Source: Hyphomicrobiaceae bacterium (GTDB lineage Bacteria; Pseudomonadota; Alphaproteobacteria; Rhizobiales; Xanthobacteraceae). From it: a stretch of DNA of 62,580 bases. Below, piece after piece: positions 13,031-31,495 of this stretch (position 1 is its first letter; the number at the start of each line of letters is the position of its first letter). The DNA lies in assembly GCA_021324465.1 (NCBI GenBank), contig JAJPJB010000021.1:1-62580 (forward strand). The letters are read 5' to 3'. The notes beneath the pieces are model-generated. The model did not search any database and was not told the DNA's origin. It worked only from the letters and a program-made list of their open reading frames with translations. The translations under genes and the position numbers were made by a program.

Positions 13031-13294
13031 TTAGGCGGCCAGCAGCCTTTCGACCAGCGCATCGATCCGCGCGACGGTGCGGAAATTTGACGGCGTCATA
13101 TCGCCGTCCGGAATCTTGATCTCAAACTCGGCTTCGATCGCGAGCATGAGATTGACCAGGTCGAGCGAAGAGATGCCGCTGTCGCCTAAATCGTCGTTGC
13201 GGCCAATGCTGCGGTCGATCGACCGCTTTTTCAGGATGCTCTGCACAAGGCTTGTGATGCGATCGGATATGGACGAAGTGACGCGGTCCAGCAC
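13031..13294 (-). CDS. Carrier protein 1 (phosphopantetheine-binding), probable partner of the amino acid:CP ligase
   Basis: The product is an acyl-carrier-protein fold of about 87 residues. The pantetheine attachment Ser is Ser43, in DSGISSLDLVN, where the usual D-S-L is S-S-L. Helices follow in the normal order (LAIEAEFEIKIP, then FRTVARIDALVERL). The start is uncertain. GTG at 13294 gives an ACP-sized protein, while an ATG at 13384 in the same frame adds 30 residues that look unlike the family. An AAGGAG lies inside that extension, followed only by ATT/ATC codons. Characterised amino acid:CP ligases act on a small carrier protein encoded nearby. This gene is divergent from the flavoprotein and ligase genes, so it is the best candidate. 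Confidence 0.85.
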   Translation of the reverse strand: MLDRVTSSISDRITSLVQSILKKRSIDRSIGRNDDLGDSGISSLDLVNLMLAIEAEFEIKIPDGDMTPSNFRTVARIDALVERLLAA

Positions 13295-13514
13295 GGTGAA
13301 CGGTTCCCGAATTTCGATGCGAAAAATCGGCTCCTTTTCGCAACTTCTGGCGCAGTTCTGGCGCAGCGAAGGCTTATCACACAATAGGTTTTCGATTGGT
13401 AACCTTTACGCCAAAGAAGCGCGCTAATTGCGCGCAAAAAGCCGCGGGGAATTGTAAGTTTTGCGCTATTTGGTGCGGTAGCGAACTCATCCGGCGGGGC
13501 AGCCGCTCTGGAGC

Positions 13515-14786
13515 GTGAACTTACTCATGAATCCCCGAACCGCGACGATTCTCGAATCGGATCAGGACATCGGCGCGGCGGCGCGACATGCCGCACGCGG
13601 AATTTTGGCGGCGACTGATAATCCGGCCCTCGTCAAAGCCAGCCTGACGTCGCGGGCCGAGCGCGTCGCCGCTATTGCTTCGACACAGGCTGCCGCGGTC
13701 GATCGACATTCGCGCTTTCCGGCCGAAGCGATCGCGGCGCTCCGCGCCGAGAAGCTGCTCGGCCTCGCGGTGCCGCGCGAGCTTGGCGGTGAAGGCGCCG
13801 GCATCGCGAATATTGCCGAAATCTGTTACCTGCTCGGCCGCGCCTGCGCTTCGACGGCCATGATCTATGCGATGCATCAGACCAAGGTGGCCTGCATCGT
13901 GCGGCACGGATCGGCAAGCGCCTGGCATCAGCTATTGCTGCGTCGACTGGTCAACGAGCAATTGCTGCTGGCCTCCTCAACCACCGAAGGCCAAAGCGGT
14001 GGCGATATCCGCAACAGTGCTGCACCGATTGAGCGCGATGGCGGGCGCGTTCGCCTGGTGCGGCAGGCGGCGGTGATCTCCTATGGGGCTGCCGCGGACG
14101 GCATCGTCACCACAGCGCGCCGCACGCCCGACGCGGCGAGTTCGGACCAGGTGCTGGTCGCCTTTCTCAAAGACGACTACACGCTGACGCCTGTATCCGG
14201 CTGGGATGCTTTCGGCATGCGCGGCACGTGCAGCGAAGGTTTCAGGCTCGTCGCCTCCGGTACGAGCGAGCAGATACTGCCGGTCGCCTATGGCAAGATC
14301 CATGCACAGACCATGATGCCGGTCGCGCATTTGCTGTGGAGCTCCGTCTGGGCCGGAATCGCGGCGGCTGCGACGGAACGCGCGCGTGCATTCGTGCGCC
14401 AGGCCGCACGGCGTTCCGGCGGTGCGCTGCCGCCCGCGGCCGCGCACCTGACGCGGGCGGATGCCTCACTGCGTTCACTGCGCAGTCTGATCGCCGGCGC
14501 GTTGCGCCGTTTTGAGGCGGCCGATCCGGCCGCCATCGAGGCCATCGATTTTCAGACCGGTATGAACCTGCTCAAGGTCAATGCATCGGAGCTTGCCGTC
14601 GCTGCGGTGATTGGCGCCATGCAGACCTGCGGCCTCGCCGGCTATCGCAACGACAGCGCGTTCGGCATCGGCCGGCACCTGCGCGATATTTTGTCGGCGC
14701 CGATCATGATCAGCAATGATCGCATTCTTGCCAATATCGCCGGTGCAGCACTGCTGTCCGGCACGCCAGCCTCGCTGTGCGATTAG
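13515..14786 (+). CDS. Acyl-CoA dehydrogenase-like flavoprotein, possibly acting on carrier-bound substrate
   Basis: The 423-residue protein has the acyl-CoA dehydrogenase fold: N-terminal helical domain (LGLAVPRELGGEGAG), central beta domain (SSTTEGQSGGDIR) and C-terminal helical domain (GRHLRDILSAPIM). Where medium-chain enzymes have the catalytic Glu in Y-E-G-T, this protein reads M398-I-S-N. The standard base is therefore missing and may lie elsewhere, or the chemistry differs. Relatives of this fold oxidise carrier-bound amino acids, for example prolyl-carrier-protein in pyrrole biosynthesis. It sits 45 bp upstream of the amino acid:CP ligase and 220 bp divergent from carrier protein 1. 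GTG 13515 or ATG 13527 may be the start. Confidence 0.87.
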   Translation: MNLLMNPRTATILESDQDIGAAARHAARGILAATDNPALVKASLTSRAERVAAIASTQAAAVDRHSRFPAEAIAALRAEKLLGLAVPRELGGEGAGIANIAEICYLLGRACASTAMIYAMHQTKVACIVRHGSASAWHQLLLRRLVNEQLLLASSTTEGQSGGDIRNSAAPIERDGGRVRLVRQAAVISYGAAADGIVTTARRTPDAASSDQVLVAFLKDDYTLTPVSGWDAFGMRGTCSEGFRLVASGTSEQILPVAYGKIHAQTMMPVAHLLWSSVWAGIAAAATERARAFVRQAARRSGGALPPAAAHLTRADASLRSLRSLIAGALRRFEAADPAAIEAIDFQTGMNLLKVNASELAVAAVIGAMQTCGLAGYRNDSAFGIGRHLRDILSAPIMISNDRILANIAGAALLSGTPASLCD

Positions 14787-14831
14787 AGCTTCGCCGCACA
14801 AAAGGAAGCATCGAACAAGGGGCACAAACAG

Positions 14832-15755
14832 ATGAACCTGGCATTCAAGAAGCCGGCCCAAGCGCTGCGTTCGCTGGATTCGATCGCCGAGGCGCTGCTG
14901 CTGCCAAGCGGCATCGATGGTGTTTACGCGCGTACCGCGATTTTTGAGAAGGTGATCGACGGGCTTGCCGATCTGATTTCGTCCTATCGCGAGGACAAAA
15001 CCGAGGTGCTGCGCTTTCCGCCGGTCATGAGCCGCCGGCAGATCGAGAAATCCGGCTACTTGAAGAGCTTCCCGCATTTTCTCGGCTGTATATGCTGCTT
15101 GCACGGCGACGAGCGCGAAATTCAGGCCAATGTCGAGCGCTACGAAGCGGGCGGCGATTGGACCGGCGGGCTTTCCGCCGCCGATCTCGTGCTCAGCCCC
15201 GCCGCCTGCTATCCGGTCTATCCGCTGGCAGCAAGCCGCGGCCACGTGCCCGCTGAAGGCCTTATCTTCGACGTCGCTTGCGACTGTTTCCGACGCGAGC
15301 CGTCAAAGATGCTCGACCGCTTGCAGTCGTTTCGCATGCGCGAATATGTCCGCATCGGCACGCCCGCACAGGTCCAGAACTTCCGCTCGCGTTGGATCAA
15401 GCGCGGTGAACGTCTCGCGGCTCAATTGGGACTCAATTACCGCATCGATCAGGCGAGCGATCCGTTCTTCGGTCGCGGCGGCAAGCTGATGGCGATGAGC
15501 CAGGTCGAACAGGCGTTGAAATTCGAGCTGCTGGTGCCGATCCATTCCGAGCAGGAGCCGACCGCCTGCGTAAGCTTCAACTATCATCGCGAGCATTTCG
15601 GCGCGACCTGGAATCTGTGCAATGCCTCGGGTCAGATCGCGCATACCGGGTGCGTCGCCTTTGGCATGGATCGGCTCGCGCTCGCTTTGTTTGCAACGCA
15701 CGGCGTCGAGTTCGCGCAATGGCCGACGCGGGTGCGCCAGGCGCTGATGGTGTGA
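14832..15755 (+). CDS. Amino acid:[carrier protein] ligase (seryl-tRNA synthetase catalytic-core homologue)
   Basis: The 307-residue protein is a class II aminoacyl-tRNA synthetase core lacking any tRNA-binding domain. Motif 2 is visible as FDVACDCFRREPSKMLDRL and motif 3 as CVAFGMDRLALALF. Cys126, Glu171 and Cys274 match the zinc ligands of the amino acid:CP ligases and of atypical methanogen SerRS. Enzymes of this family from Bradyrhizobium and Agrobacterium activate glycine or alanine and load it on the phosphopantetheine of a small carrier protein, not on tRNA. The biological product is still unknown. Its ATG has AAGGGG upstream, and it follows the flavoprotein gene by 45 bp. It is convergent with the GNAT-like gene, with 4 bp between stops. 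Confidence 0.92.
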   Translation: MNLAFKKPAQALRSLDSIAEALLLPSGIDGVYARTAIFEKVIDGLADLISSYREDKTEVLRFPPVMSRRQIEKSGYLKSFPHFLGCICCLHGDEREIQANVERYEAGGDWTGGLSAADLVLSPAACYPVYPLAASRGHVPAEGLIFDVACDCFRREPSKMLDRLQSFRMREYVRIGTPAQVQNFRSRWIKRGERLAAQLGLNYRIDQASDPFFGRGGKLMAMSQVEQALKFELLVPIHSEQEPTACVSFNYHREHFGATWNLCNASGQIAHTGCVAFGMDRLALALFATHGVEFAQWPTRVRQALMV

Positions 15756-15759
15756 TCGG

Positions 15760-16629
15760 CTAAACGCCCAGAATCGCGTATTCGGTATAAGCGAGATCGC
15801 CGAGGCGCGGTCGTTGCGGGCCCTTGAAATATTTCGGCTTGCTGCCGCGGCGGAAGATGCCGACCAGCCCGGGAACAGGCCTATTGGCGTCGAGGATCAC
15901 AAAAGGCCGGCCGCGCCGCAGCAGATATTTGCCGATCGGACCGGCAAAGCGCGCGAGGTCGGCAATGTCGCGGCAATAGATCAGCTGTGCGCAGGGCACG
16001 AAGCCTTTGACCAGGCGCAGCCGAAAGACGAAGGGATAGGCGCGCTCGGACGTCGCACACCAAAGGCTGATGCAGTCATAGGCCGAATGCTCGACAAGCA
16101 CCGCGCGATCGAAAGCATCGAAGGTGACCGAGGGCTGTCGTCTCACGTCGAATACTTCGGCTTTGCCAGCCGCAAAGACATTCAGCGCCGGCATCGCGAT
16201 GAACAGGCCGTCGCTGTACCGGCGAAACCCCTGGGCCTCGATAATAGGCCAGGTGTGCGGTGCCGCCGAGATATCGGTATAGGTGACCTCTTTGTGGCGC
16301 ATCGCTTGCGCCACCAGGAGTGACGCATAGGCGCGAAAGGCGGGTTCGACATACCAGCTGGACAGATTGCAGCGCGCCGAGAGCGCGCCGCCGACCGGCA
16401 TCGCCGCGCAAATCAGCAAGATCACGCCGACCGGCGCGCCGGCGGTCTCGAGAAGGTAACCATAGCGCGGCAGACCGGGCGGCGGGTTATGCCGCGCGAG
16501 CTGCTGCAGCGCATTGACCCAGAAGGCGCGGCCGCGGCTCGGAAAGCCGCGCGTCAAGAGATCGGCGATGGCGGGCGTGTCGCCGTGCTCGATTTGGCGG
16601 CAGCGGATTTCTGCAGGCGGCGAAGCCAT
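15760..16629 (-). CDS. GNAT-like acyltransferase, role unknown
   Basis: The product is 289 residues. The N-terminal half looks like a GNAT N-acyltransferase: IRCRQIEHGDTPAIADLLTRGF opens like strand 1/helix 1, and the segment from about 75 to 135 reads like the acetyl-CoA core (VGVILLICAAM, then SSWYVEPAFRAYASLLV). The C-terminal half may be a second, degenerate GNAT domain. The ATG at 16629 begins the domain. A TTG at 16701 would add 24 atypical residues, and neither has a clear ribosome binding site. It lies between the amino acid:CP ligase and carrier protein 2, so it could acylate a carrier-bound amino acid or move it to an acceptor. That is inference; the GNAT call is itself moderate. 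Confidence 0.65.
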   Translation of the reverse strand: MASPPAEIRCRQIEHGDTPAIADLLTRGFPSRGRAFWVNALQQLARHNPPPGLPRYGYLLETAGAPVGVILLICAAMPVGGALSARCNLSSWYVEPAFRAYASLLVAQAMRHKEVTYTDISAAPHTWPIIEAQGFRRYSDGLFIAMPALNVFAAGKAEVFDVRRQPSVTFDAFDRAVLVEHSAYDCISLWCATSERAYPFVFRLRLVKGFVPCAQLIYCRDIADLARFAGPIGKYLLRRGRPFVILDANRPVPGLVGIFRRGSKPKYFKGPQRPRLGDLAYTEYAILGV

Positions 16630-16719
16630 TCGCGTTGACCACGAAACGGTCGTGAACTTGATCGTAATCGTTCCGCGACTATAGAGGCAGCGAATGAACA
16701 AACAGTAGGTCTGGCGGCA

Positions 16720-16965
16720 ATGTCGATAAAATTAACCATAATGGACCAGATGACGCAGATTGCGCGCGAGCACGGCAAGGCGCTTGCGCCGCTGCACGAC
16801 GATCTGGTGCTTTTGGAGTCCGGACTGGATTCGCTTGGCTTCGCTGTGCTGGTTGCCCGTCTCGAGGATCGGCTCGGCATCGATCCGTTCACGGCGGCCG
16901 AAGACGCGGTGTTCCCGGTCACGTTCGGCGATTTCGTGAAGGTTTATGAGAATGGCGCGCGCTGA
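16720..16965 (+). CDS. Carrier protein 2 (acyl carrier protein)
   Basis: This 81-residue acyl carrier protein has the pantetheine site at Ser38 (ESGLDSLGFAVL) and the usual following helices (VARLEDRLGIDPF, VTFGDFVKVY). The DSL motif is intact, unlike carrier protein 1. The gene overlaps the next gene, an acyl-adenylating ligase, by 20 bp, so the two are made together and the ligase probably loads this carrier. No phosphopantetheinyl transferase gene is in the window, so the cell's general enzyme must modify it. Confidence 0.9.
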   Translation: MSIKLTIMDQMTQIAREHGKALAPLHDDLVLLESGLDSLGFAVLVARLEDRLGIDPFTAAEDAVFPVTFGDFVKVYENGAR

Positions 16966-18364
16966 GGCGCCGTCGCTGCGCCGGCGCGCTGCCCACCATT
17001 CGGCAGAGCGCTTCTTCTTCGATCGCTTTGCGAGCGCGCGCTTTACCTCGCTTGCGAGCGCAACCTCGCTCGGCGGTCGACTCGGTGATTTGGCGGGAAG
17101 GTCGGTTTTGCTTGCGGCGTCGAGCCAGCTCACGGCGGCACTGGCCCTGATCGAACTCGACGGCGTCGCGCGGCGGATCACGATCCTGCCGCCGGACGTC
17201 GCGCCGGATCATTTGGCTGCCTTGATCCGCGGCGCCGAGATCGACGCCGTCGTGACCGATCTTGATCCTCCGCCGGAGGCGTTACGCGGAATTCCGATCC
17301 GCGTCGCGTGTGCCCCCACACTGGCAACGGCTTGCGATCTTCCCGCCGCTTTTGCCCAAACCGAATGGGTGATGTTGACGTCGGGCACCACGGGCGTGCC
17401 GAAAATGGTCGTGCACGATCTGGCCGGGCTTACCGCGGCCTTCGTCGCGCGCAAGCCGGAAGCCGGCGTCATATGGGGAACGTATTACGACATTCGCCGC
17501 TATGGCGGCCTGCAAATTTTCCTGCGCGCGGTGCTTGGCGGCACCTCGCTGATCTTATCGAGCCCCGGTGAGCCGGTCAGCGAGCACCTTGAGCGGCTGG
17601 CGCGGCATGGCGTCACCCATCTGCTCGGCACGCCCACGCACTGGCGTCGCGCCTTGATGTCGCCAGAGATCAAAAAAATAGCGCCACGTTACGTTCGCCT
17701 CTCCGGCGAGATCGCCGATCAGACAATTTTGGATGCGTTACGCGCAACATTTCCGCAAGCGATCGTCAGCCACGCTTTCGCCTCGACCGAAGCGGGAGTG
17801 GCCTTCGAGGTCCGCGACGGGCTTGCCGGCTTCCCCGCACGCTGGATCGGGCAAGCACGGGGCGGCGTCGAGATGAAAGTGAAAAACGGCTCGCTCTGCA
17901 TTCGCTCGCCGCGCACCGCGTCGCGCTATGTCGGCACCGATATGGCGCTGCGCGATGAGGGCGGCTTTGTCGATACCGGCGATATGGTGGAGCTGCGCGG
18001 TGATCGCTATGTGTTCGCCGGACGCCGCGGCGGCATCATCAATGTCGGCGGTCTAAAAGTCCATCCGGAGGAGATCGAGGCGGTGATCAACCGCCATCCG
18101 CAGGTGCGCATGTCACTGGTGCGGGGCAAGCGCAGCCCGGTCACGGGCGCGCTCGTGATCGCCGATGTGGTCTTGAAATCGAGCGGTGAAAGCAACGACA
18201 GCGCGAGCAGGCAAATCGGTGCGCGAGATCACGCGCTGGTCGAGGGCGACATTCTCAAATTGTGCCGCGATGCGCTGCCGCGCCACAAAGTGCCCGCCGC
18301 GATCAGCATCGTGCCGTCGCTCGATGTCGCGGCAACCGGCAAATTGGCGCGGCGCGAAAGCTGA
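16946..18364 (+). CDS. Acyl-adenylating ligase (AMP-binding, ANL superfamily)
   Basis: The 472-residue protein is short for the family. It has the P-loop-like motif MLTSGTTGVPKMV (about 143-155), the AFASTEAG motif (about 276-283), the DTGDM motif (about 332), the hinge and VGGLKVHPEEIE region, and the C-terminal catalytic Lys in AATGKLARRES. It activates a carboxylic acid as acyl-AMP and passes it to CoA or, given the overlapping acyl carrier gene, probably to carrier protein 2. Two starts are close (16946, 16952); GAAGG lies just upstream and suits the second slightly better. The SDR gene follows after 13 bp. The acid is not predictable. Confidence 0.9.
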   Translation: MRMARAEAPSLRRRAAHHSAERFFFDRFASARFTSLASATSLGGRLGDLAGRSVLLAASSQLTAALALIELDGVARRITILPPDVAPDHLAALIRGAEIDAVVTDLDPPPEALRGIPIRVACAPTLATACDLPAAFAQTEWVMLTSGTTGVPKMVVHDLAGLTAAFVARKPEAGVIWGTYYDIRRYGGLQIFLRAVLGGTSLILSSPGEPVSEHLERLARHGVTHLLGTPTHWRRALMSPEIKKIAPRYVRLSGEIADQTILDALRATFPQAIVSHAFASTEAGVAFEVRDGLAGFPARWIGQARGGVEMKVKNGSLCIRSPRTASRYVGTDMALRDEGGFVDTGDMVELRGDRYVFAGRRGGIINVGGLKVHPEEIEAVINRHPQVRMSLVRGKRSPVTGALVIADVVLKSSGESNDSASRQIGARDHALVEGDILKLCRDALPRHKVPAAISIVPSLDVAATGKLARRES

Positions 18365-18377
18365 AGCTGAAGCAAGC

Positions 18378-19130
18378 ATGGCCACAGCCGGCACAGCGAA
18401 ATCCATTCTGGTCACCGGCGGGAGCCGTGGTCTTGGCCTGGGCATCGCGCGCAAGCTCGCGGCGAGCGGTCATCGTGTCGTCGTGGTCGCTCGCAGCGAC
18501 AGCAAGGAGCTCAACGCAGCAATCGCCGCGGCCAGGCGTGCCAAGCGAGGCGCGCTGCATTTTGCGCCATTCGACCTCGGCGAGGTCGACAAGATCCCCG
18601 CCTTCGTGCGCGATCTGCGCAAGCAGTTTGGCCCGCTATTCGGCCTCGTCAACAATGCCGCAATCGGCTTCGATGGCGCGCTGTCATTGATGCACAATTC
18701 GCAGATCGAGCAGCTCGTCCGCATCAACACGCTCGCGCCGATCATGCTCACCAAATATGTCGTGCGCGGCATGATGTCGGACAATGCCGGCCGCATCATC
18801 AATATTGGCTCGATCATCGGCTTTACCGGCTATAGTGGCCTGTCGGTCTATGGCGCGACTAAGGCCGCGATGCTTGGCTTCACCCGTTCGCTGGCGCGCG
18901 AAGTCGGCCGGCTCGGCATTACCGTCAATGCCGTCGCGCCGGGCTTCCTCGACACCGACATGACGCATGGGCTTGCCGGCGAGCAGCGCGAGCAGGTGGT
19001 GCGGCGCAGCGCCTTGCGCCGTCTCGCCAGCGTCGACGATGTGGCGAATGCCGTCGAGTTTCTGCTCAGCGACAAGGCACAGAGCGTAACCGGCACCGTC
19101 TTGACCATCGATGCCGGGGCAACGGCTTAG
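18378..19130 (+). CDS. SDR-family reductase, FabG-like (3-oxoacyl-carrier reductase type)
   Basis: The 250-residue short-chain dehydrogenase has the TGGSRGLGLGIA cofactor loop at the N-terminus, NNA around residue 88, and Ser plus YGATK as catalytic residues (about 140-158). It ends with the usual VTGTVLTIDAG. It most resembles 3-oxoacyl-ACP reductases, which use NADPH. It is the third gene of a carrier protein - ligase - reductase operon, starting 13 bp after the ligase stop. The predicted job is reduction of a keto group on the carrier-bound acyl chain. It converges with the next SDR gene, with 8 bp between the stops. Confidence 0.9.
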   Translation: MATAGTAKSILVTGGSRGLGLGIARKLAASGHRVVVVARSDSKELNAAIAAARRAKRGALHFAPFDLGEVDKIPAFVRDLRKQFGPLFGLVNNAAIGFDGALSLMHNSQIEQLVRINTLAPIMLTKYVVRGMMSDNAGRIINIGSIIGFTGYSGLSVYGATKAAMLGFTRSLAREVGRLGITVNAVAPGFLDTDMTHGLAGEQREQVVRRSALRRLASVDDVANAVEFLLSDKAQSVTGTVLTIDAGATA

Positions 19131-19138
19131 CAAGACCG

Positions 19139-19972
19139 CTAGCGCGCCTCGGTATGTGTCTTGGTCAGCCCGGTTGGCGGACCGTCGATCGCGGTCCAAC
19201 CGCCATCAACCAGCAGTGCCGTGCCGGTTATGTAGCTCGCCGCGTCCGAAGCGAGGAAGGCAACGGCGGCGCCGACTTCGCTCGGCCGTGCCCATCTGTT
19301 GAAGACGGTATGCGCGCCGAGCGCACTCCAGATCTCCGGGCGCGCCCGCAGCGGCCCGACCAGCGCAGTTTCTACGATACTCGGCACGATGGCATTGACC
19401 CGCACGCCATACTGGCCCACTTCGGAGGCCAGCCCGCGCACCATCTGTATGATGCCGGCTTTGGTCGCGCCATAAATTGCAAGGCCCGGCTCGAGCGTCG
19501 TAGCGCGCACCGAGGAACTCGCGATCAGGCTGCCGCCGCCTTGCTTGACCATCATGCGACCGAAGGCGCGCAGGAAGAAAAACGTGCCGCGCAAATTGAG
19601 GTCAGCGACCCGGTCGTATTCGTCATCGGTATAATCCAGCATCAGCTTGCGCACATGGATCGCCGGTGTCGTCACTGCTATGTCGAGTCTTCCGTGCGTG
19701 TTGGCGATCGCCGCCGCCATGGCATTGACAGCCCCGCCATCGCCGGCATCGAGCATGTGAACTTCGGCGCGTCCGTTCATTCCAATCTCGGCTGCCGTCG
19801 CCTCGGCGCCGGCGCGGTTCTTGTCGGCGCAAATGACGGTTGCACCGAGCGCGGCAAGCGCCTCAGCTGACGCTTTGCCGATACCGGAGGCCGCGCCCAG
19901 CACCAGTGCAATCTTGCCGTCGAGCCGAAACAGCCTGCGATACGCCTCAAGGCGTGCTTCCACCGGCACCAT
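19139..19972 (-). CDS. SDR-family oxidoreductase of the TRAP operon
   Basis: The 277-residue classical SDR has GAASGIGKA as cofactor loop, a run of Ser (IASSSVRA) and YGATK as catalytic residues, and the C-terminal ITGTALLVDGG. The usual NNAG motif reads TTPA, which is odd but tolerated in some members. The ATG at 19972 has GGAG 8 nt upstream; a GTG at 19981 is less likely. It is the last gene after dctQM and dctP (26-bp gap), so it probably oxidises or reduces the compound the transporter brings in. Confidence 0.9.
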   Translation of the reverse strand: MVPVEARLEAYRRLFRLDGKIALVLGAASGIGKASAEALAALGATVICADKNRAGAEATAAEIGMNGRAEVHMLDAGDGGAVNAMAAAIANTHGRLDIAVTTPAIHVRKLMLDYTDDEYDRVADLNLRGTFFFLRAFGRMMVKQGGGSLIASSSVRATTLEPGLAIYGATKAGIIQMVRGLASEVGQYGVRVNAIVPSIVETALVGPLRARPEIWSALGAHTVFNRWARPSEVGAAVAFLASDAASYITGTALLVDGGWTAIDGPPTGLTKTHTEAR

Positions 19973-19998
19973 CGGGCGCACTCCGGACGCTGCGGCAC

Positions 19999-21015
19999 TC
20001 AGCCGGTGCGGCCCTGTTCGGCCATTTGCTGAAACTTCTCCACGTTATCAACGCCGGCGTAATTGGCAATTCGCTCGTTTGCCGGACCCATCAGTGCGCG
20101 GAACGGCGCGAGATTCGGCCGCGTTACGGTCATCCCGGCGGCTTCGATCTTCTTGATTTGATCTTCCTCCTGGTCGGCGATCATTTTGCGCATCAGATCG
20201 CCGGCGGCGGCGCTCTCCTCGTGGAAGATCGCCTGCTGCGTCGGATCGAGCTTCTTCCAGGTCACGGCGCTCACCGTATGGATCATGTTGTTGTAGATGT
20301 GTCGGGTAAGCGCCAGATATTTCTGCACTTCATAGAACTTGTTGAAATAGATTACCGCGATCGGATTCTCTTCACCGTCGACGACATGCTGCGAGAGCGC
20401 GAGATACAGCTCCGGGAACGCGATAGCCTGCACTGTGGCGCCGAGCGCTTCGAGCGACGCCTGGATCTGAAGTTCCGGCGGCGTGCGCAGCTTTAGGCCT
20501 TTGACATCTTCCGGCACATTGATTGGACGCACTGTGTTGGTCACGTTGCGGAAGCCATATTCCCAGTTGCGCAGCAAGATGAAACCTTGCTTTTCGGCGA
20601 GCGGGGCAAGCCAATCCATGGCCGGCCCGTCGAGCACGCGAAACGCATGCTGCGGGCTGTCCCAGATGAACGGCAGCATTACCGCCGCGAAGGCGGTGTC
20701 ATATTTGTCGAGCTGACCTTGCGTCGGCAGTCCCATATCGATGGTGCCGAGCTTGATCTGCTGCGCCTGTTCGGGCGGACCGCCCAGCACGTTGTTGGGA
20801 AAGATATTGATTTTGATCGCGCCATTGGTGCGGGTCTCGACCCGCTCCGCGAATTGCTTGGCGGCGATATTGCCCGGGTGATCCTCCGCGGCGAAATGAG
20901 CAAAGCGCAACGTGAGCGGCGCCGCGTGCAGCGAGACATAAGGCGCCGAGATCGAGAATGCCGCGCCCGCCGCGCCGGCCTTGAGCATTATCCTGCGACT
21001 CATTGCAAAGGTCAT
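19999..21015 (-). CDS. TRAP transporter solute-binding protein (DctP family)
   Basis: The 338-residue periplasmic binding protein starts with SRRIMLKAGAAGAAF, a Tat-like twin-arginine signal, then LTLRFAHFAAEDHPGNIAAK. The motif VKGLKLRTPPE near residue 165 carries the Arg that binds ligand carboxylates in this family. The start at 21015 has GGGAGG at 6 nt, which sets it inside a much longer open frame. It lies 23 bp downstream of the fused membrane subunit gene. The ligand is a carboxylic acid of unknown type. Confidence 0.94.
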   Translation of the reverse strand: MTFAMSRRIMLKAGAAGAAFSISAPYVSLHAAPLTLRFAHFAAEDHPGNIAAKQFAERVETRTNGAIKINIFPNNVLGGPPEQAQQIKLGTIDMGLPTQGQLDKYDTAFAAVMLPFIWDSPQHAFRVLDGPAMDWLAPLAEKQGFILLRNWEYGFRNVTNTVRPINVPEDVKGLKLRTPPELQIQASLEALGATVQAIAFPELYLALSQHVVDGEENPIAVIYFNKFYEVQKYLALTRHIYNNMIHTVSAVTWKKLDPTQQAIFHEESAAAGDLMRKMIADQEEDQIKKIEAAGMTVTRPNLAPFRALMGPANERIANYAGVDNVEKFQQMAEQGRTG

Positions 21016-21038
21016 GACGTCCTCCCGGCTTCTCTTTC

Positions 21039-22964
21039 TCAGACGCGAAAACCGATATAGCGCGGCAGCGCCAGTGCGAACCACGGAACAAAGGCTACCA
21101 CCAACAATCCGATCAGCACTATGATCAGATAAGGCAGCATTGCGCGCGACGCCTTTTCGATGTCGCAGCGCATGATAACACAGCAGACATAAAAGCCGAC
21201 GCCGGCCAGCGGCATGAAGCCGCCGACGCCCATGGCGATGATCAGAACCAGCGCGTAGTGCATTTGGCTCAAGCCAAGCTTGCCGGCGATCGGGATCAAA
21301 AGCGGTGCCACGACATTGAGTGACGGAAGGCCTTCGAGCAGCACGCCGACCGCGATAAGCAGCACGATCGAGCCAAGCATGAAAATTGCGGTCGAGCCGC
21401 CGAGCATATGCAAAAGCGCGACCAGCCGCTGCGGCAGATAGGCGACGGTAAGCGTCCATTGGAAGCAAGTTGCCGCGGCAAAGATGAATAGCAGCACGCC
21501 GGTAAGCGCCGCGGTGTCGAGCACCGTGCGCATAAACTCACCAAAATTCATTTCGCGATAGAACAGCATCGACAGTGCAAGCCCATAGATCACGGCAAAG
21601 CCCGCGACTTCGGTCGGCGTGGCGATGCCGAGCAGAATGCCACCGAGCAGCATCGCCGGCATTAACAGCGGCATGATCGCAGTGATTCCGGCCCGCGCCA
21701 TGGTCGCAATTGGGGCGCGCGGTGATGGCGGCATGCCGGCCCGGCGCGCGCGCAGATAGATCAACGCCATCAGGCAGAGCGCCAGCACGGCGGCCGGAAT
21801 GAGCCCGCCGATGAACATGGCGCCGACCGACACACTGGTGATCGAGCCGACGATCAGCATGGCGATGCTTGGTGGCACGGTCTCGCCCATAATGGCGGAT
21901 GCCGCGAGCACGGCCGCGCCTTCGGCCGAGCCGTGGCGCTCGCGCAATTCGTCGCGCATCACCGTGCCGACAGCGGCGACGTCGGCCGGCTTCGAGCCCG
22001 ACAGACCGGAGACTACATACATGCTCGCCACCGTGACCTGTAAGAGCCCGCCGCGCCAATGGCCGACCAGGGTGTGAATGAAGCGAACCAGCCGCACGCT
22101 GATGCCGCCGCGTTCCATGATCAGTCCGGCAAGAATAAAGAACGGGATCGCGAGCAGAATGAAATTGCCGGTGCCGTTCGCCATGGTCTGCGGCAGGATG
22201 ACGAAAGAGCCGGCATCGGCCGCCCACAGATAGGCGGCGGTGGCGAGAAGAAGGACAAAGCCGACCGGTACGCCGGCGAGGATCGTGACAAAGAACAGCG
22301 ACAGCGTCACGATAATCGCTGCATCGCCGCGGAGGTAGGGCAGCCACAGATCGCGCGTCGCCGCGGCAAGCACGAGCACGGCGATGAAGGCGATGCCGAC
22401 GGAGCAGGCGAGCCGCCGGTTCTGCCGGGACAGATTGTCCAGCGCATAGAGCGCCAAAAGCACCATGCCGAGCGGCAGCGGCAGGGCGATCAGCGCCGCC
22501 GGCAATTGCAGGACCGGCGTGAGCTCGCCCCAGCTTGAAGCGACGAATTGTGAGGAAGCAAAGCCGGTCAAGCCGACAACGAACACAACAATAATATCGG
22601 AAAACACGACGCAGGCTCGCTCGGCGGAAACCGGCAGCAGATTGAGCACGATGCGGACGAAAGCGTGCTCGCGCCGGCGATAGGCCACCGCGCCGCCGAT
22701 GAAAGCCAATATCGACAGCGCCAGCCGCGCCGCTTCGTCGGACCACAGAAACGAGTGACGGAAATAGACGCGCGCAAAGACATTGGCGAGGACAAGCGCG
22801 AGCTCGGCAAGCAGCGCGATGGCAACAACGGCTTCCGCCACCATTTCGAGCGGCCGCAGCAGCGAGTTTTTGCGCCCTACCGCCGTCTCATCGGAAGGCG
22901 CAGTCGCCTGATCAGCAAGATCAACAGAACTCTGCATCGACGCATCCACCCCGCGCGCCGGCAT
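21039..22964 (-). CDS. Fused TRAP transporter membrane protein (DctQ-DctM)
   Basis: The 641-residue membrane protein has about sixteen hydrophobic segments. Residues of about 38-190 match the small four-helix DctQ subunit (FLWSDEAARLALSILAFIGG). From about 215 to the end it is the DctM carrier domain (GVPVGFVLLLATAAYLW, then IPFFILAGLIMERGG). Fused DctQM subunits are common and use a sodium gradient. The operon is DctQM, DctP, SDR, which supplies a full transporter. The acyl-CoA synthetase lies 114 bp upstream on the same strand and may share the transcript. Start ATG 22964 or 22937. Confidence 0.93.
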   Translation of the reverse strand: MPARGVDASMQSSVDLADQATAPSDETAVGRKNSLLRPLEMVAEAVVAIALLAELALVLANVFARVYFRHSFLWSDEAARLALSILAFIGGAVAYRRREHAFVRIVLNLLPVSAERACVVFSDIIVVFVVGLTGFASSQFVASSWGELTPVLQLPAALIALPLPLGMVLLALYALDNLSRQNRRLACSVGIAFIAVLVLAAATRDLWLPYLRGDAAIIVTLSLFFVTILAGVPVGFVLLLATAAYLWAADAGSFVILPQTMANGTGNFILLAIPFFILAGLIMERGGISVRLVRFIHTLVGHWRGGLLQVTVASMYVVSGLSGSKPADVAAVGTVMRDELRERHGSAEGAAVLAASAIMGETVPPSIAMLIVGSITSVSVGAMFIGGLIPAAVLALCLMALIYLRARRAGMPPSPRAPIATMARAGITAIMPLLMPAMLLGGILLGIATPTEVAGFAVIYGLALSMLFYREMNFGEFMRTVLDTAALTGVLLFIFAAATCFQWTLTVAYLPQRLVALLHMLGGSTAIFMLGSIVLLIAVGVLLEGLPSLNVVAPLLIPIAGKLGLSQMHYALVLIIAMGVGGFMPLAGVGFYVCCVIMRCDIEKASRAMLPYLIIVLIGLLVVAFVPWFALALPRYIGFRV

Positions 22965-23078: not shown

Positions 23079-24884
23079 CTAAAGCCGGATATCGCCCGCG
23101 GTGATCTTGCCATAGAGGGCTGCATCCAGCGGCTCATAGGCTTGGCTTTGCGGGTGATCGAAATAGATTTCGCACTCGGGGCGACGTGGATCAAAGCCCT
23201 CGCGTGCGAGCGCGGCCTTCCTGTGCCTGAAAGTCCCCGTGACGCCGATCGCATTTTGGATGCGCAGAAACAGCGGCCGCGCGTAAGGCGGCAGGCGCTG
23301 TATTAGGTGCTGCCGCAGCGAGGCGAGATCGAGCGTGCCGTGGGTGACGAGCGCCGCCATGCCAGCGGCGCCGTCGGTGCCGGGAATTTTGACGCCGTAG
23401 ACGCACGCCTCTTTGACGCCGGGAAAAGCCATGAGCGCGTCGAGGACTTCCGAGGTCGCGACGTTCTCGCCTTTCCAGCGAAACGTGTCGCCGATCCGGT
23501 CGACAAAATAATAGAAGCCGGCCGCGTCCATGCGCATCAGATCGCCGCTGCGGTACCAGGCATCGCCTGGCTCGAACACGTCGCGGAGGATTTTGCGCTT
23601 GGTGTCGTCGGCACTGGTATAGCCCTCGAATGCGCGACCGGGCCGGGCTCTGCCGTCGCGAATTCTGCCGATCGCCTCGCCGGCTTCACCCGGCGCGCAA
23701 CGCACACAGCGACCGTTGGCGTCCCGCGCCGGCGCGCCGGTCGCCGCATCGAATTTCACCAGCTCCAGCGCGAAGCGATGTTTTAGGAACGGCGGCACGC
23801 GGCCGATCGCACCGACTTTGCCCTCGACGTTATAGAGCGACACATTGCCTTCGGTCGCCGCGTAGAATTCCAGAATTTTCGGGATGGCAAAGCGCGATTG
23901 AAATGTCTCCCAGATATCGGCGCGCAGCCCGTTGCCTGCGCAGAGGCGCAGGCGGTGCTCGCGCTCGCGCGGATGCTTTGCAGCGTTGACCAAGTAGCGG
24001 CATAGTTCGCCGATATATTGGAACAGCGTGCAATCATAATCGGCGATATCGTCCCAGAATCGCTGCGCGGAAAATTTCTCGGCGATCACCACCGTGCCGC
24101 CGCGCGCCAGAATCGCGCCCACCGCTACCACGCCACCGACCGAATGATAGAGCGGCAGACAGTCATACATGCGGTCGTGCGGCCCCGCTTTCATCATGCC
24201 GGCAAACCAAAGACTCCATTCCAGGAGCCGGCGGTGGCTGACATTGGCGGCTTTGGGGAGGCCCGTCGTGCCCGACGTGTAGATCGTCAGCGCACGATCG
24301 CCGATCGTGACCGCGCGCCGCTCCATCGGGCCGAGCGCCGTGTCGGAGAACCGTTCGATATCGCGGTCAATGCGCGAGAAGTCATCGCTACCATGCGACC
24401 ACAGATCGGGTCGGCTCGTCAGGGGCGCGGAGCGAAACTCATCGATCAGCTCGTCGGCCACGATTACGTGCTTGGGCGCCACGAGGTCGATGCAATGGGC
24501 CAGCGACTGGCCTCGCAACTGCGTGTTGATCAGTGACACGACGCCACCCATGCTGGTGACGCCGAGCCAGATCGCCAGATATTCCGGCCGGTTCGGCATC
24601 ATCAGGCAGACAGTGTCGCCGTTACCCAGTTTTTGCGCGAGCGCCCAGCGCGCATAGCGGTTGGCGCGCGCGACAAGGCCCTGGTAAGTCAATGTCTCGC
24701 GCCCGGAAATCAGCGCGGGCGCAGCACCGTGTTGTTCTGCGCTCTCGGCGATGAGCGCCGGCAAGATGCGCTGCGGCGTCTGCGCAATAGGCGCGATAGC
24801 TTCGAGCGCGCGCAGCCAGGCGCGCGATGCGCTCTCGTCGCTGGCGCCGGCAAGCGCGGCCGGCTCGTTCTCGATCAAGGCCAT
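23079..24884 (-). CDS. Long-chain acyl-CoA synthetase (FATP/FadD-type)
   Basis: The 601-residue adenylate-forming enzyme has YTSGTTGLPKAANVSHRR (about 237-254), EFYAATEGN and, later, YRSGDLMRMDAAGFYYFVDR with the R-x-G-D-T-F-R-W-K-G-E-N segment typical of very-long-chain/FATP-type synthetases. It converts fatty or bile-acid-like acids to CoA thioesters with ATP. It was probably made from ATG 24884; in-frame sequence upstream to 25004 looks non-coding. Its position before the TRAP genes suggests that it activates the imported acid, but the 114-bp gap leaves this open. Confidence 0.9.
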   Translation of the reverse strand: MALIENEPAALAGASDESASRAWLRALEAIAPIAQTPQRILPALIAESAEQHGAAPALISGRETLTYQGLVARANRYARWALAQKLGNGDTVCLMMPNRPEYLAIWLGVTSMGGVVSLINTQLRGQSLAHCIDLVAPKHVIVADELIDEFRSAPLTSRPDLWSHGSDDFSRIDRDIERFSDTALGPMERRAVTIGDRALTIYTSGTTGLPKAANVSHRRLLEWSLWFAGMMKAGPHDRMYDCLPLYHSVGGVVAVGAILARGGTVVIAEKFSAQRFWDDIADYDCTLFQYIGELCRYLVNAAKHPREREHRLRLCAGNGLRADIWETFQSRFAIPKILEFYAATEGNVSLYNVEGKVGAIGRVPPFLKHRFALELVKFDAATGAPARDANGRCVRCAPGEAGEAIGRIRDGRARPGRAFEGYTSADDTKRKILRDVFEPGDAWYRSGDLMRMDAAGFYYFVDRIGDTFRWKGENVATSEVLDALMAFPGVKEACVYGVKIPGTDGAAGMAALVTHGTLDLASLRQHLIQRLPPYARPLFLRIQNAIGVTGTFRHRKAALAREGFDPRRPECEIYFDHPQSQAYEPLDAALYGKITAGDIRL

Positions 24885-25035
24885 GCCGGAGCATGGCGCA
24901 ACAACGTGAATCTTTCGCTTCAAGATCGGATAAAACTCTAATGATCCGGAACCTGCGGCTGGACGGTAGCGCCGCCGCACCGAATCGAAGTAGCAACATG
25001 GCAAAAGATTAAGGTTATTCGCTCGAATTCGTGTT

Positions 25036-25051
25036 GCTTACGTTCTTTTGC
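25036..25051 (+). promoter_or_regulatory. Motif GCTTACGTTCTTTTGC upstream of metY (copy 1)
   Basis: This 16-nt stretch recurs, with two extra T residues, at 27551-27568 upstream of the cupin gene. Both copies sit in short gaps before plus-strand genes (94 and 44 nt from the start codons). A shared promoter or operator is possible, but chance cannot be excluded. Confidence 0.3.
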
Positions 25052-25144
25052 CTACACAGCCACTGATAAGAAACGCAATCTCCGTAGCATTGCGTTCCCA
25101 AGCGCATTCAAAGAATTGCGCGATTGTGGGCAGGCGGTGGCAAC

Positions 25145-26449
25145 ATGAAGAGCGAAACAATAGCCATTCACGGCGGCTATGAAACCGATCCCACGACCAA
25201 GGCCGTGGCGGTGCCGATCTATCAGACCGTCGCCTATGAGTTCGACAGCGCCGATCACGGCGCCGCCCTGTTCAATCTCGAAATCGGAGGTTTTCGCTAT
25301 AGCCGCATCAGCAATCCGACCACGGCCGTGCTCGAGCGTCGTATCGCCCAGCTCGAAGGCGGCGTCGACGCGCTGTGCGTCGCGTCGGGTCAAGCGGCGT
25401 TGAGCTATGCGATCCTCAACCTCGCCGGCATGGGGCACAATATCGTTTCGGTGCCGCAGCTCTACGGCACGACCTATACGCTGTTCGGCCACATTCTGCC
25501 GAGCCAGGGCATTTCGGTGCGCTTTGCCGCATCCGATAGCGCTGACGCGATCGAGAAGCTGATCGACGACAATACGCGCGCGGTCTTCTGCGAAAGCGTC
25601 GGTAATCCGGCCGGCAATATTTGCGATATCGAGTCGTTGGCGCAGGTCGCCGAACGCAATGGCGTCCCGCTGGTCGTCGACAATACCGTGGCGACGCCGA
25701 TCCTGCTGCGGCCGATCGATTACGGCGCGCATATCGTCGTGCACTCGCTGACCAAATTCCTGGGCGGCCATGGCACCACGCTCGGCGGCGCCGTCGTCGA
25801 TTCCGGACGTTTCGCGTGGAAGGATCATGCGCGCCGCTTCCGCCAATTCAACGAGCCGGACGCGTCCTATCACGGCCTGGTTTATACTGATCATTTCGGC
25901 GCGCACGCCTATATTGCGCGGGCCCGCAGCGTCTTTCAGCGCACCACCGGCGCTATTCTTTCGCCGCTGTCGTCTTTCCTGTTGCTGCAAGGCATCGAAA
26001 CGGTGGCGCTGCGGGTCGAGCGGCATGTCCACAATGCGCGGCGCGTGGCCGAATTTCTGCGCGACGATCCGCGCGTCGAATGGGTCAACTATGCCGGCTT
26101 CCCCGATCATCCGCATCATGCGCTGGCGCAAAAATATCTCGGCGGCCGCGCCTGCTCGCTGCTCACATTCGGCGTATTCGGCGGTCTGGAAGCCGGCAAG
26201 GCATTTTACGACGCGCTCAGGCTGATCAAGCGGCTGGTCAATATGGGCGACGCCAAGTCGCTCGCCTGCCACCCCGCTTCGACCACGCATCGACAGATGT
26301 CGGCCGAGGAACACGCCAGGGCCGGCGTAAAGCCGGAAATGATCCGCCTGTCGATCGGCATCGAGCATGTCGACGACATCATTGCCGATCTCGATCAGGC
26401 GCTGGCGGCCTCGCAGGCGCGGCCCGCCGCGCTGCGGGCGGCGGAATAG
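25145..26449 (+). CDS. metY: O-acetyl(succinyl)homoserine sulfhydrylase-type PLP enzyme
   Basis: The 434-residue enzyme belongs to the Cys/Met metabolism PLP family. It has the PLP-binding Lys in HSLTKFLGGHGTTLGG (about residues 203-218), the FRYSRISNPTTAVLERR opening and ACHPASTTHRQMS near the end. It makes homocysteine directly from an acyl-homoserine and sulfide. The ATG at 25145 is used because the upstream in-frame GTG lacks a good context. It is followed 21 bp later by a MetA-type acyltransferase gene, so the pair covers acylation and sulfhydrylation of homoserine in methionine synthesis. Acyl specificity (acetyl versus succinyl) is uncertain. Confidence 0.92.
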   Translation: MKSETIAIHGGYETDPTTKAVAVPIYQTVAYEFDSADHGAALFNLEIGGFRYSRISNPTTAVLERRIAQLEGGVDALCVASGQAALSYAILNLAGMGHNIVSVPQLYGTTYTLFGHILPSQGISVRFAASDSADAIEKLIDDNTRAVFCESVGNPAGNICDIESLAQVAERNGVPLVVDNTVATPILLRPIDYGAHIVVHSLTKFLGGHGTTLGGAVVDSGRFAWKDHARRFRQFNEPDASYHGLVYTDHFGAHAYIARARSVFQRTTGAILSPLSSFLLLQGIETVALRVERHVHNARRVAEFLRDDPRVEWVNYAGFPDHPHHALAQKYLGGRACSLLTFGVFGGLEAGKAFYDALRLIKRLVNMGDAKSLACHPASTTHRQMSAEEHARAGVKPEMIRLSIGIEHVDDIIADLDQALAASQARPAALRAAE

Positions 26450-26470
26450 GGAGGCGGCTGGAAACGAGCC

Positions 26471-27526
26471 ATGCCGCTGTTCCTCGATACCGGCGCGCCT
26501 GCTTCCGAGCTGAGTGCTGCGAGCTGCATCACCGTCGGGCTCGTCAACAACATGCCCGATGCTGCGTTCGACACGACGGAGCGGCAGTTCGCCGAGCTCA
26601 TCCGCGCGGCGGCGCCGGACCGCGTGGTGCTGCTAAAGCTGTTCGTCATTCCGGAGCTGCCGCGCAGCGAGGCCATCCGGCGGGCGCTCGCCGCAAAATA
26701 TCGCAGCGTCACGGCGCTGTGGGATGCGCCGCTCGATGGCTTGATCGTCACCGGCACCGAGCCGCGCGCCAAAAAACTATCCGACGAGCCGTATTGGCAT
26801 AGCTTGAGCACGCTCGTTGATTGGGCGCGGGTTCACACCTTCTCGACCATCTGGTCGTGCCTTGCCGCGCATGCGGCGGTATTTCATGCCGATGGCATTG
26901 AGCGCTGCGCGCTGCCGCAAAAACAGTTTGGCGTGTTCGATTGCCGGCTCGCCAATGACCACCCGATGACGCAGCACTTTCCCGAGCCGCTTTGGGTGCC
27001 GCATTCGCGTTATAACGGCCTGTCGGAAGCCGCCCTTGCGTCATGCAATTATAGAATCCTCACGCGCTCCGACACCGCGGGTGTCGACGCCTTCGCCAAG
27101 CAGGACGGCAGCTTCTTTCTGTATTTCCAGGGCCATCCGGAATACGACGCCGACACTTTGTTGCGCGAATACCGCCGCGACGTGGCACGCTTTCTCAAAG
27201 GCGAGCGCGCGGTCTATCCGGCGCTGCCGCTCAACTATCTCGAAGCGGATGCCGCGGCGCAGGCGGAGGCGTTTCGGGCGCGCGCGGTTGCCTGCCGCGC
27301 CAGCGGCCTGATTAGTGACTTTCCGGAGCGTGCTCTGGCTGCAGGCTTGAAAAATCCCTGGCGCGCCGCAGCGCTTGGTTTCTACGCGAAATGGATCGCT
27401 TTTTTGGATGCGCGCAAGGCGGAGCGGCGGGAAACCGGCGCGGCAGCCCGGCATGTCCGGCTGCGGCGAACCTGGCGCGACTGGCCGCTGCCTTTGCGGC
27501 GGCCGGCGCAGAGCCGGGCGGGTTAA
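26471..27526 (+). CDS. metA: Homoserine O-acyltransferase, MetA family
   Basis: The 351-residue protein has the MetA (HTS) glutamine-amidotransferase-like fold. The nucleophile is Cys130 in IWSCLAAHAAV, and His222 and Glu224 in GHPEYDADTL complete the triad. PHSRY (178-182) is also conserved. The family name is succinyltransferase, although many MetA proteins use acetyl-CoA. The residue that decides this cannot be assigned confidently by eye. It lies 21 bp after metY in a two-gene operon. The C-terminal 40 residues are Arg-rich and extend past the usual family end. Confidence 0.88.
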   Translation: MPLFLDTGAPASELSAASCITVGLVNNMPDAAFDTTERQFAELIRAAAPDRVVLLKLFVIPELPRSEAIRRALAAKYRSVTALWDAPLDGLIVTGTEPRAKKLSDEPYWHSLSTLVDWARVHTFSTIWSCLAAHAAVFHADGIERCALPQKQFGVFDCRLANDHPMTQHFPEPLWVPHSRYNGLSEAALASCNYRILTRSDTAGVDAFAKQDGSFFLYFQGHPEYDADTLLREYRRDVARFLKGERAVYPALPLNYLEADAAAQAEAFRARAVACRASGLISDFPERALAAGLKNPWRAAALGFYAKWIAFLDARKAERRETGAAARHVRLRRTWRDWPLPLRRPAQSRAG

Positions 27527-27550
27527 CGGTTCGGTAGTCAATTTTCTGTC

Positions 27551-27568: not shown

Positions 27569-27611
27569 GAGTGCTGCGGCCTAATGCAGGCCTTTCCCCT
27601 GGGAGAATCCT

Positions 27612-28106
27612 GTGTCGAACCCCGTCGTCTTTGCCACACCCGCTGATGTCGATCTCGATCCGGCGCCGATCCCGCCGCACTGGATCATCGAAGGCAATCC
27701 GACAGCGCGCTCCAAGCGGCTCGTGACAAGCGCTGACGGGACGTCGAGCGTCATGGCCTGGTCCTGTACGGCCGGCCGCTTCAAATGGAATTACGCGGTC
27801 GACGAGACAATTCATCTCATCTCCGGCGAAGTCTTCGTCACCGACGAGAACGGCAAGGTGCGCCGCGTCGGCCCTGGCGACATGGTGTTCTTCCCGGCCG
27901 GCAGCGTGAGTACCTGGTATATTCCCGATCATGTGCGCAAGCTTGCGGTGTGCCGGCAGAGCATGCCGCGCCCGCTCGGCTTTGCGCTGCGCGCCGTCAA
28001 CAAGATCATCAGCCTCATCACCGGCTTCGGCGGCGGCAGCGCTCTCGATGCCGTGCCGGTTGCTGCCGACGCCGCAAATGGCAAGCCGGCCCACAAGGCG
28101 GCCTAG
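27612..28106 (+). CDS. Cupin-domain protein
   Basis: This 164-residue single-domain cupin of the (S)-ureidoglycine aminohydrolase-like type contains AGRFKWNYAVDETIHLISGE (about 54-73) and GDMVFFPAGSVSTWYIPDHV (about 89-108), which form the barrel. The metal-binding residues of this subgroup are Glu-rich rather than His-rich, so catalysis is unclear. GTG at 27612 is set by GGGAGA about 6 nt upstream. The C-terminus ends in a hydrophobic helix plus an Ala-rich tail. It is convergent with a lipase gene. The role is unknown. Confidence 0.85.
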   Translation: MSNPVVFATPADVDLDPAPIPPHWIIEGNPTARSKRLVTSADGTSSVMAWSCTAGRFKWNYAVDETIHLISGEVFVTDENGKVRRVGPGDMVFFPAGSVSTWYIPDHVRKLAVCRQSMPRPLGFALRAVNKIISLITGFGGGSALDAVPVAADAANGKPAHKAA

Positions 28107-31473: not shown

Positions 31474-31495
31474 CTACGGTTGTTTGGGGGAAGCA

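Follow-up and report, generated by a model that had tools for sequence, protein, structure and literature searches.

The window analyzed here is a stretch of 62,580 nucleotides (contig JAJPJB010000021.1, positions 1 to 62,580, assembly GCA_021324465.1) from a Hyphomicrobiaceae bacterium. Between positions 13031 and 19130, it carries seven genes arranged around an amino acid:[carrier protein] ligase (hereafter, ligase). We found that this array consists of two fixed units linked by the gene for a tandem-GNAT protein. One unit encodes a carrier protein (ACP1; ACP, acyl carrier protein), a flavoprotein with the acyl-CoA dehydrogenase (ACAD) fold, and the ligase. The other encodes a second carrier protein (ACP2), an acyl-adenylating ligase (AMP ligase 1), and a FabG-like short-chain dehydrogenase/reductase (SDR1). 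The units are co-inherited even when they are unlinked, and the pathway exceeds seven genes. We estimate a probability of roughly 0.9 that the genes form one pathway. A preliminary description, made from the sequence alone, had listed the seven genes and suggested that all of them act together; the seven open reading frames are present, and the Pfam families agree for all but the GNAT-like protein, which matched none.

Co-inheritance was assessed by order-wide counts. The ligase was found in 21 of 61 near genomes. Among 347 genomes of the order, 81 had a ligase hit (76 after the removal, before counting, of five weak hits resembling seryl-tRNA synthetase [SerRS], E 1e-40 to 1e-44), 36 had the GNAT, and 23 had AMP ligase 1. 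GNAT and ligase occurred together in 33/36 genomes (exceptions: G114, a weak hit; G224; and G378), AMP ligase 1 and ligase in 21/23 (exceptions: G224 and G334), and AMP ligase 1 and GNAT in 22/23 (exception: G334). The corresponding Fisher p values per genome were 1e-21, 2e-13, and 2e-24. Counted per genus, they were 5e-6 for GNAT/ligase and 2.5e-5 for AMP ligase/ligase, and these are the safer values because the genomes are related. GNAT hits lacking AMP ligase (14) belong mostly to a distant GNAT branch. In genus g43 (Bradyrhizobium-like), eight genomes had ligase, GNAT, and AMP ligase 1, and three had none of them. AMP ligase 1 was located away from the ligase in 8/8 fetched loci of this genus, in the order AMP ligase 2 (a long-chain acyl-CoA synthetase)-ACP2-AMP ligase 1-SDR, and the gene set of the Bradyrhizobium-like genomes is split over three places. 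The comparison across relatives that the preliminary description had proposed therefore shows genes that belong together by co-inheritance.

The neighborhoods of relatives were compared in 20 stretches and 80 named loci, the latter being the best 80 of 579 hits and biased to window-like ligases. ACP1-ACAD-ligase recurred wherever the contig extended far enough, and GNAT-ACP2-AMP ligase-SDR recurred as a second unit with variable gene order. The ACAD gene lay at most 400 bp from the ligase at 104/104 loci, and an ACP1 match lay at most 3 kb from it at 102/104 (misses: L185 and L234). ACP2 was at most 400 bp from AMP ligase 1 at 45/46 loci, and the SDR at 44/46; the three misses are confined to L115 and L118, two loci with partly fragmented matches. 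The GNAT was at most 1.2 kb from AMP ligase 1 at 24/46 loci, the ligase at most 12 kb from it at 33/46, and AMP ligase 2 was on the same stretch within 12 kb at 40/46. These distance counts exclude 18 ligase and 3 AMP ligase loci too close to a contig end, as well as 12 rows named as duplicates, of which L220, L222, L235, and L236 are actually distinct genomes and L142 was outside the set anyway; L105 and L210 are a single contig, counted twice. Relatives thus hold one or both fixed units and not random subsets of the genes, the outcome that the preliminary description had named as contrary to its proposal. Two side observations concern the units. In L115, L117, and L118 (Bradyrhizobium), the AMP ligase, SDR, or GNAT matches are shortened or split while those of ligase and ACAD look intact, a pattern resembling decay of the second unit. 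In L185 and L234 (genomes G078 and G183), where no ACP1 match was found inside 3 kb, ligase and ACAD adjoin MetY and MetA genes.

The pathway extends beyond the array. Relatives of the window genes at 23079 to 28106, which encode AMP ligase 2, a MetY-like enzyme, a MetA-like acyltransferase, and a cupin, are located near the ligase in L079, L196, L202, L219, and others, and cupin relatives were found near the ligase in L079, L090, L187, L196, L202, and L219. In many relatives, a class IV aminotransferase, a thiamine diphosphate (ThDP) enzyme, and a hydrolase accompany these genes. The MetA-like protein belongs to a subtype (NF003776) named for homoserine O-succinyltransferase, which is its putative activity here. 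We analyzed the distribution of this subtype in 77 chosen genomes: 20 with a window-type ligase (assigned by tree for some and by neighbors or likeness for others), G291, G224, 21 with a ligase of the type neighbored by DUF1839, and 34 without a ligase. At 290 bits or more, it was present in 20/20 window-type genomes (17 above the cut-off of 358) versus 0/57 others (best, 190.4); the 290-bit line was set after the scores were seen, and G078 and G183 had already shown MetA beside the ligase before the test. MetA was located at most 25 kb from the ligase in 9/20 genomes and was unlinked in 11/20, including eight Bradyrhizobium-like genomes; it was found in 0/3 ligase-free genomes of g43. In nine MetA loci fetched afterwards, MetY was adjacent in 9/9, and 8/9 stretches also carried the aminotransferase or the hydrolase mentioned above. 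We conclude that MetA belongs to the pathway by co-inheritance, while the other additions belong by neighborhood. The idea that all seven genes act together holds in that they are co-inherited, but they are not a closed line, the MetA-like, MetY-like, and acyl-CoA ligase genes belonging too. A search for common neighbors in the full clusters added only transport and glycan genes, each in 3 to 7 of 34 loci.

A housekeeping role of MetA and MetY in methionine synthesis is unlikely, given that the window genome has a MetX-like gene elsewhere (near full-length; 478.3 bits, below the cut-off of 500) and four further strong PF01053 genes. A MetY-MetA fusion, suggested by a single long frame in L106 and L219, was dropped: by NCBIfam, the L219 frame is MetA only, and the L106 matches start in different frames.

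The ligase itself could be assigned to its family. In the NCBIfam scan, it scored 462.1 bits against NF005479 (cut-off, 357), and in a search of PDB sequences, residues 11-305 of its 307 amino acids aligned with the solved Bll0957 protein (E 3e-136). Its sole Pfam match is tRNA-synt_2b (residues 119-288), in agreement with the earlier view of a SerRS core without a tRNA-binding domain. The window ligase is 67% identical to a Bradyrhizobium japonicum ligase. Cys126, Glu171, and Cys274, which had been put forward as a zinc site, are invariant in 8/8 aligned ligases; we take these residues to be the zinc-binding ones in the family. Papers in PNAS (2010) and Structure (2013) reportedly have the ligase and its carrier as their subject. 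According to PMC2922099, the PNAS study demonstrated that enzymes of this family charge carrier proteins with amino acids, and by analogy with the family, glycine or alanine is the presumed substrate of the window ligase. The literature searched assigns no established purpose to the loaded carrier.

A hint at the pathway comes from the phaR mutant of Bradyrhizobium diazoefficiens. A 30-gene table of raised transcript and protein levels includes bll0957, which is the ligase going by its PDB name, together with bll0958 (labeled acyl-CoA dehydrogenase) and bll7459 (labeled branched-chain aminotransferase) (PMC10888616, Table 1). Their joint rise may be an independent pointer for the pathway.

The ligase family falls into two branches with different partners. 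At 133 ligase loci (all duplicates included, and L105/L210 again counted twice), the GNAT was found at 88, DUF1839 at 22, both at 0, and neither at 23; among the latter, 15 contain further members of the gene set and some are truncated. No DUF1839 match was detected in the window or in any of the 88 GNAT-bearing loci. A tree of 62 nonredundant ligases contained one split with 100/100 support, separating 20 from 42 rows. The 20-row clade comprises 19 DUF1839 rows and one other, and the 42-row clade, which includes the window, comprises 27 GNAT rows, 10 with AMP ligase or Met genes, and 5 others. Taken alone, the DUF1839 rows are set apart by a branch supported at 76/96; the tool issued a warning about L041, a long row. 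A GH2-like gene accompanies the ligase at 19/20 loci of the DUF1839 clade, and glycan genes do so at 13/20. In a phylum sample of 398 genomes, 4 of 28 ligase hits were outside the order, all in one family and all with DUF1839. Window-type ligases outside the order were found in named records labeled Caulobacteraceae, Beta-, and Gammaproteobacteria (L091, L051, L110, L112, L113, L116, and L121), all of them metagenome assemblies. L053, from a record titled Frankia sp. RB7, has the ligase in a Bradyrhizobium-type gene order, suggesting a wrong label or contamination.

The surroundings of Atu2574 were described in 2010, in a note in proof, as a glycan setting for which sugar aminoacylation and monooxygenation were predicted (PMC2922099). 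The glycan context of the ligase family was thus already noted at that time. Going by its position, the unknown protein of that note is probably DUF1839. A 2023 paper put DUF1839 in the papain-like fold and proposed a role in glycan processing (PMC10318531).

The protein that links the two units matched no Pfam family from sequence, and the Pfam GNAT families were reached by 3/50 homologues at E 0.01. An AlphaFold model from a 50-row alignment had a predicted local distance difference test (pLDDT) value of 93.6; it replaced a shallow model (8 rows, pLDDT 58.7). Foldseek matched the model with probability 1.00 to two-domain GNATs (Eis, 2ozg, and N-myristoyltransferase); among the 50 matches listed, template modeling (TM) scores by query length were 0.38-0.59 and identities were 8-15%. 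A PDB sequence search with the GNAT profile gave nothing at E 5. As modeled, the protein has a tandem GNAT fold, which bears out the first guess of a GNAT-like protein. A distant GNAT branch, 25-30% identical, occurs with a carrier, an AMP ligase, and a pyridoxal phosphate (PLP) decarboxylase in L204, L205, L206, and L218, and L291 has GNAT, ligase, decarboxylase, and carrier matches together. The partnership of the GNAT with a carrier and an AMP ligase is therefore a feature of two branches and is not universal. In the phylum sample, nine genomes lying outside the ligase set had solely distant GNATs or G730-like hits. As a side observation, the four loci of the distant branch are compact operons away from the ligase (L204:6490-10426, L205:9676-13596, L206:6579-10562, and L218:6565-10595), in which the AMP ligase is TIGR03098-like and the decarboxylase TIGR03099-like. 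Furthermore, G274 and G308 (L202, L208, and L214) have two GNAT copies per genome; the G308 pair lies about 3 kb apart with a ThDP enzyme in between.

The flavoprotein has the Acyl-CoA_dh N and C domains, so the earlier label of an acyl-CoA-dehydrogenase-like flavoprotein stands for the fold, but dehydrogenase chemistry is probably wrong, both glutamate positions being lost. The C-terminal position is Ile in 10/10 sequences (window and nine relatives), while three control ACADs have Glu; the isovaleryl-type position is Ala (eight) or Ser (two) in the same ten, and the other three controls have Glu. In acyl-CoA dehydrogenases, Glu at one or the other of these positions is the catalytic residue. 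The controls were the six ACADs of the window genome that matched the profile, of eleven others fetched. Because the dehydrogenase base is lost and the protein is constantly paired with the ligase, an oxidizing or oxygenating role is suggested, and the flavoprotein is probably an oxygenase or oxidase. The motif M-I-[NSAH]-N-D was found in 93 of 116 ACAD-like sequences, the remaining 23 being outside the pattern. Solved relatives are mostly dehydrogenases (best E 1e-23), followed by DnmZ (E 4e-18) and nitrososynthases (E 7e-16), and scores against the RedW and PigA models were 28.8 and 47.8 bits. No flavin reductase gene was recognized in the cluster, no search having been aimed at one.

The two carriers fall, by sequence, into different groups: identities of the window ACP1 are 27-57% with ten further ACP1 sequences, compared with 17-26% for ten ACP2 sequences. 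The nearest NCBIfam model of ACP1 is PRK07081 (52.9 bits, under the cut-off of 72). A stretch of 20 bp is shared by the reading frames of ACP2 and AMP ligase 1, as had been noted at the outset. AMP ligase 1 is not a member of the exosortase-A-associated family TIGR03098 (49.8 bits; cut-off, 592.35), and its single PDB match, 3etc, covers the C-terminal part and gives no substrate clue. The reductase matches adh_short, but it is under the cut-off in all 25 listed NCBIfam families of the 245 matched (best, TIGR01830, 209.8 versus 297.75 bits), including that for FabG (3-oxoacyl-ACP reductase), and hence is called FabG-like only. The coordinates are given in Table 1.

Table 1. Genes of the array, of the extended pathway, and between the two parts in the window
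Feature	Position	Strand	Basis or remark
ACP1, carrier protein of the ligase unit	13031..13384	-	Start uncertain, conserved part from ~13309; PP-binding, 34.4 bits
ACAD-fold flavoprotein, probably oxygenase or oxidase	13515..14786	+	Pfam Acyl-CoA_dh N and C
Amino acid:[carrier protein] ligase	14832..15755	+	NF005479; PDB 4h2w/3mey relative; tree position
Tandem-GNAT protein, proposed amide-forming acyltransferase	15760..16701	-	Conserved part from ~16626; AlphaFold and Foldseek
ACP2, carrier protein of AMP ligase 1	16720..16965	+	PP-binding, 26.9 bits
AMP ligase 1, proposed ACP2 loader	16946..18364	+	Pfam AMP-binding and AMP-binding_C
FabG-like SDR (SDR1), conserved part	18390..19130	+	Pfam adh_short
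Second SDR and TRAP-transporter-like genes between the parts	19139..22964	-	Membership doubtful; TRAP names from sequence appearance
Long-chain acyl-CoA synthetase (AMP ligase 2)	23079..25004	-	PRK08279, 748.6 bits versus cut-off 625
MetY-like PLP enzyme	25124..26449	+	Cys_Met_Meta_PP; TIGR01326, 604 bits versus cut-off 495.1
MetA-like acyltransferase, subtype PRK05368.1-3 (NF003776)	26471..27526	+	388 bits versus cut-off 358
EutQ-like cupin	27612..28106	+	Cupin_3

We propose that the pathway would build a small amide on carrier proteins without a ketosynthase, a condensation domain of a nonribosomal peptide synthetase (NRPS), or tRNA. Pfam scans of the twelve proposed cluster proteins and the SDR at 19139 detected neither a ketosynthase nor an NRPS condensation domain, in line with the preliminary description. 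The ligase would activate glycine or alanine and load it onto ACP1, an activity known for the family. The ACAD-fold flavoprotein might then oxidize or oxygenate the aminoacyl group on the carrier. AMP ligase 1 would put a second acid on ACP2, to be reduced by the FabG-like enzyme, e.g., to a hydroxyacyl group; these roles are suggested because of the fixed gene order and the overlap. The tandem GNAT could transfer the ACP2-bound acyl group to an amine; in the simplest case, aminoacyl-ACP1 would provide this amine and an N-acyl-aminoacyl thioester would result. The MetA-like and MetY-like enzymes may provide a homoserine-derived part. For the mechanism as written, in which the GNAT forms the amide between the two carriers, we see the odds as even. 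A product of the N-acyl-amino-acid type, as initially suggested, is plausible.

Several observations weigh against a single pathway of this kind. Among the steps, only the ligase activity has family-level knowledge behind it; the others are predicted. The ligase is missing in 4/19 other genomes of the window's genus (those genomes are 79-97% complete), and in the window genome the class IV aminotransferase (PRK13356; 470 bits versus cut-off 262) is on a different contig. Furthermore, G224 has the second unit without the ligase, G334 has the AMP ligase without ligase or GNAT, and G291 combines the second unit with a DUF1839-clade ligase and has no MetA of the subtype. Finally, seven distant-GNAT loci (L286-L290, L292, and L293) match neither the ligase nor the decarboxylase query.

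The presence in G224 of the second unit with the GNAT and without the ligase unit also bears on the acceptor of the GNAT. The enzyme might acylate a free amine, e.g., a homoserine-derived amino acid, instead of aminoacyl-ACP1, with the ligase unit feeding another step of the same pathway. In line with this, the distant GNAT branch occurs with no adjacent ligase and has a PLP decarboxylase as a potential amine source, and OlsB and FeeM are GNATs that acylate free amino acids. However, Bradyrhizobium-type loci place the GNAT directly beside the ligase, with ACP2 elsewhere, and we regard the free amine as a doubtful acceptor, if a serious one.

Less likely than not, in our estimate, but a live rival, is a decoration of cell-surface glycans. 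In this reading, exopolysaccharide amino sugars would receive the carrier-bound aminoacyl or N-acyl-aminoacyl group, with DUF1839 as the transferring protein in one ligase clade and the tandem GNAT in its sister. The sister clade has the DUF1839, GH2-like, and glycan genes counted above, and sugar aminoacylation was predicted for its setting in the 2010 note (PMC2922099). Within the window clade, L037, L122, L213, and L219 lie among exopolysaccharide genes (Wzz, Wzx, Wzy-like, and glycosyltransferase), which also counts against the main reading, and in L302, matches to a flippase and a glycosyltransferase lie close to MetA. On the other hand, none of the glycan query genes is matched at 25 of the 31 long loci of the window clade, among them the window itself, and MetA-like, MetY-like, and acyl-CoA ligase genes would better suit a free metabolite. 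At the edge of the four exopolysaccharide loci, we observed mutually similar proteins, one with a GINT1_N match (L219:3033-4592, L037:5517-7058, L122:6676-8202, and L213:12314-13888).

Chance proximity of two separate systems, one formed by the ligase unit and the other by the AMP ligase unit, is very improbable: each is found alone (G224, G291, and the DUF1839 clade), but they are co-inherited while unlinked, contrast 8 to 3 within one genus, and share the MetA distribution of 20/20 versus 0/57.

The proposed single pathway shares parts with known systems. Bll0957-type ligases (PDB 3mey and 4h2s-4h2y) belong to the same sequence family as the window ligase and share its catalytic core and its invariant Cys/Glu/Cys residues; genes for a carrier protein and an ACAD are close by. 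The predicted Atu2574 system (PMC2922099) shares the ligase, carrier, and redox enzyme with the window, but it has a conserved unknown protein and a glycosidase, neither of which lies beside the window ligase, and the window ligase is in the other clade. The exosortase-A-associated system (TIGR03098/TIGR03099) is approached by L204, where the distant GNAT and carrier accompany near-members of both families (558.7 versus 592.35 and 441.4 versus 478.45 bits); it has a decarboxylase, whereas the window set has none. DnmZ, the ORF36-type nitrososynthases, and RedW/PigA share the fold and a weak sequence match with the flavoprotein, but true dehydrogenases match equally well or better. The tandem GNAT fold is common to the window protein and Eis, N-myristoyltransferase, and 2ozg, at the low identities given above. 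In OlsB and FeeM, N-acylation proceeds from an acyl carrier protein, and rhizobitoxine synthesis involves a MetY-like enzyme.

In the open-licence PubMed Central literature searched, we found no description of the set of GNAT, ACP2, AMP ligase, SDR, MetA, and MetY genes. New here are the two-unit structure, the co-inheritance of unlinked genes, the two ligase clades with different partners, the larger gene set, and the lost ACAD glutamates. It is possible, although we lean slightly against it, that the genes specify an undescribed thiotemplated pathway in which the SerRS-derived ligase replaces an NRPS adenylation domain and the tandem GNAT a condensation domain. Such a pathway would combine carrier-bound glycine or alanine, a reduced acyl group from the other carrier, and a homoserine-derived part into an unknown metabolite class. 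It would operate in Alphaproteobacteria including Bradyrhizobium, Rhodopseudomonas, and Methylobacterium, where its genes would frequently occupy three separate chromosomal sites. If the mechanism is true, amide bonds are formed between two carriers without NRPS parts. Through the gene list, an orphan ligase family gains a testable role, and the scattering of the genes suggests that a pathway like this could escape a search aimed at compact clusters.

The genes at 19139-22964 have no close counterpart in most relatives. Distant matches to the tripartite ATP-independent periplasmic (TRAP) genes (29-34%) follow SDR1 in L023. Several loci of the same genus (L043:9233-11353) have a BacA/SbmA-like ATP-binding cassette (ABC) transporter where the window has the SDR and TRAP-like genes, so the transporter varies within the genus. 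A few kilobases past the cluster, the window encodes a SnoaL_4 protein (31439-32095; 48.7 bits), and SnoaL-like genes of another Pfam type were observed near the ligase in several relatives.

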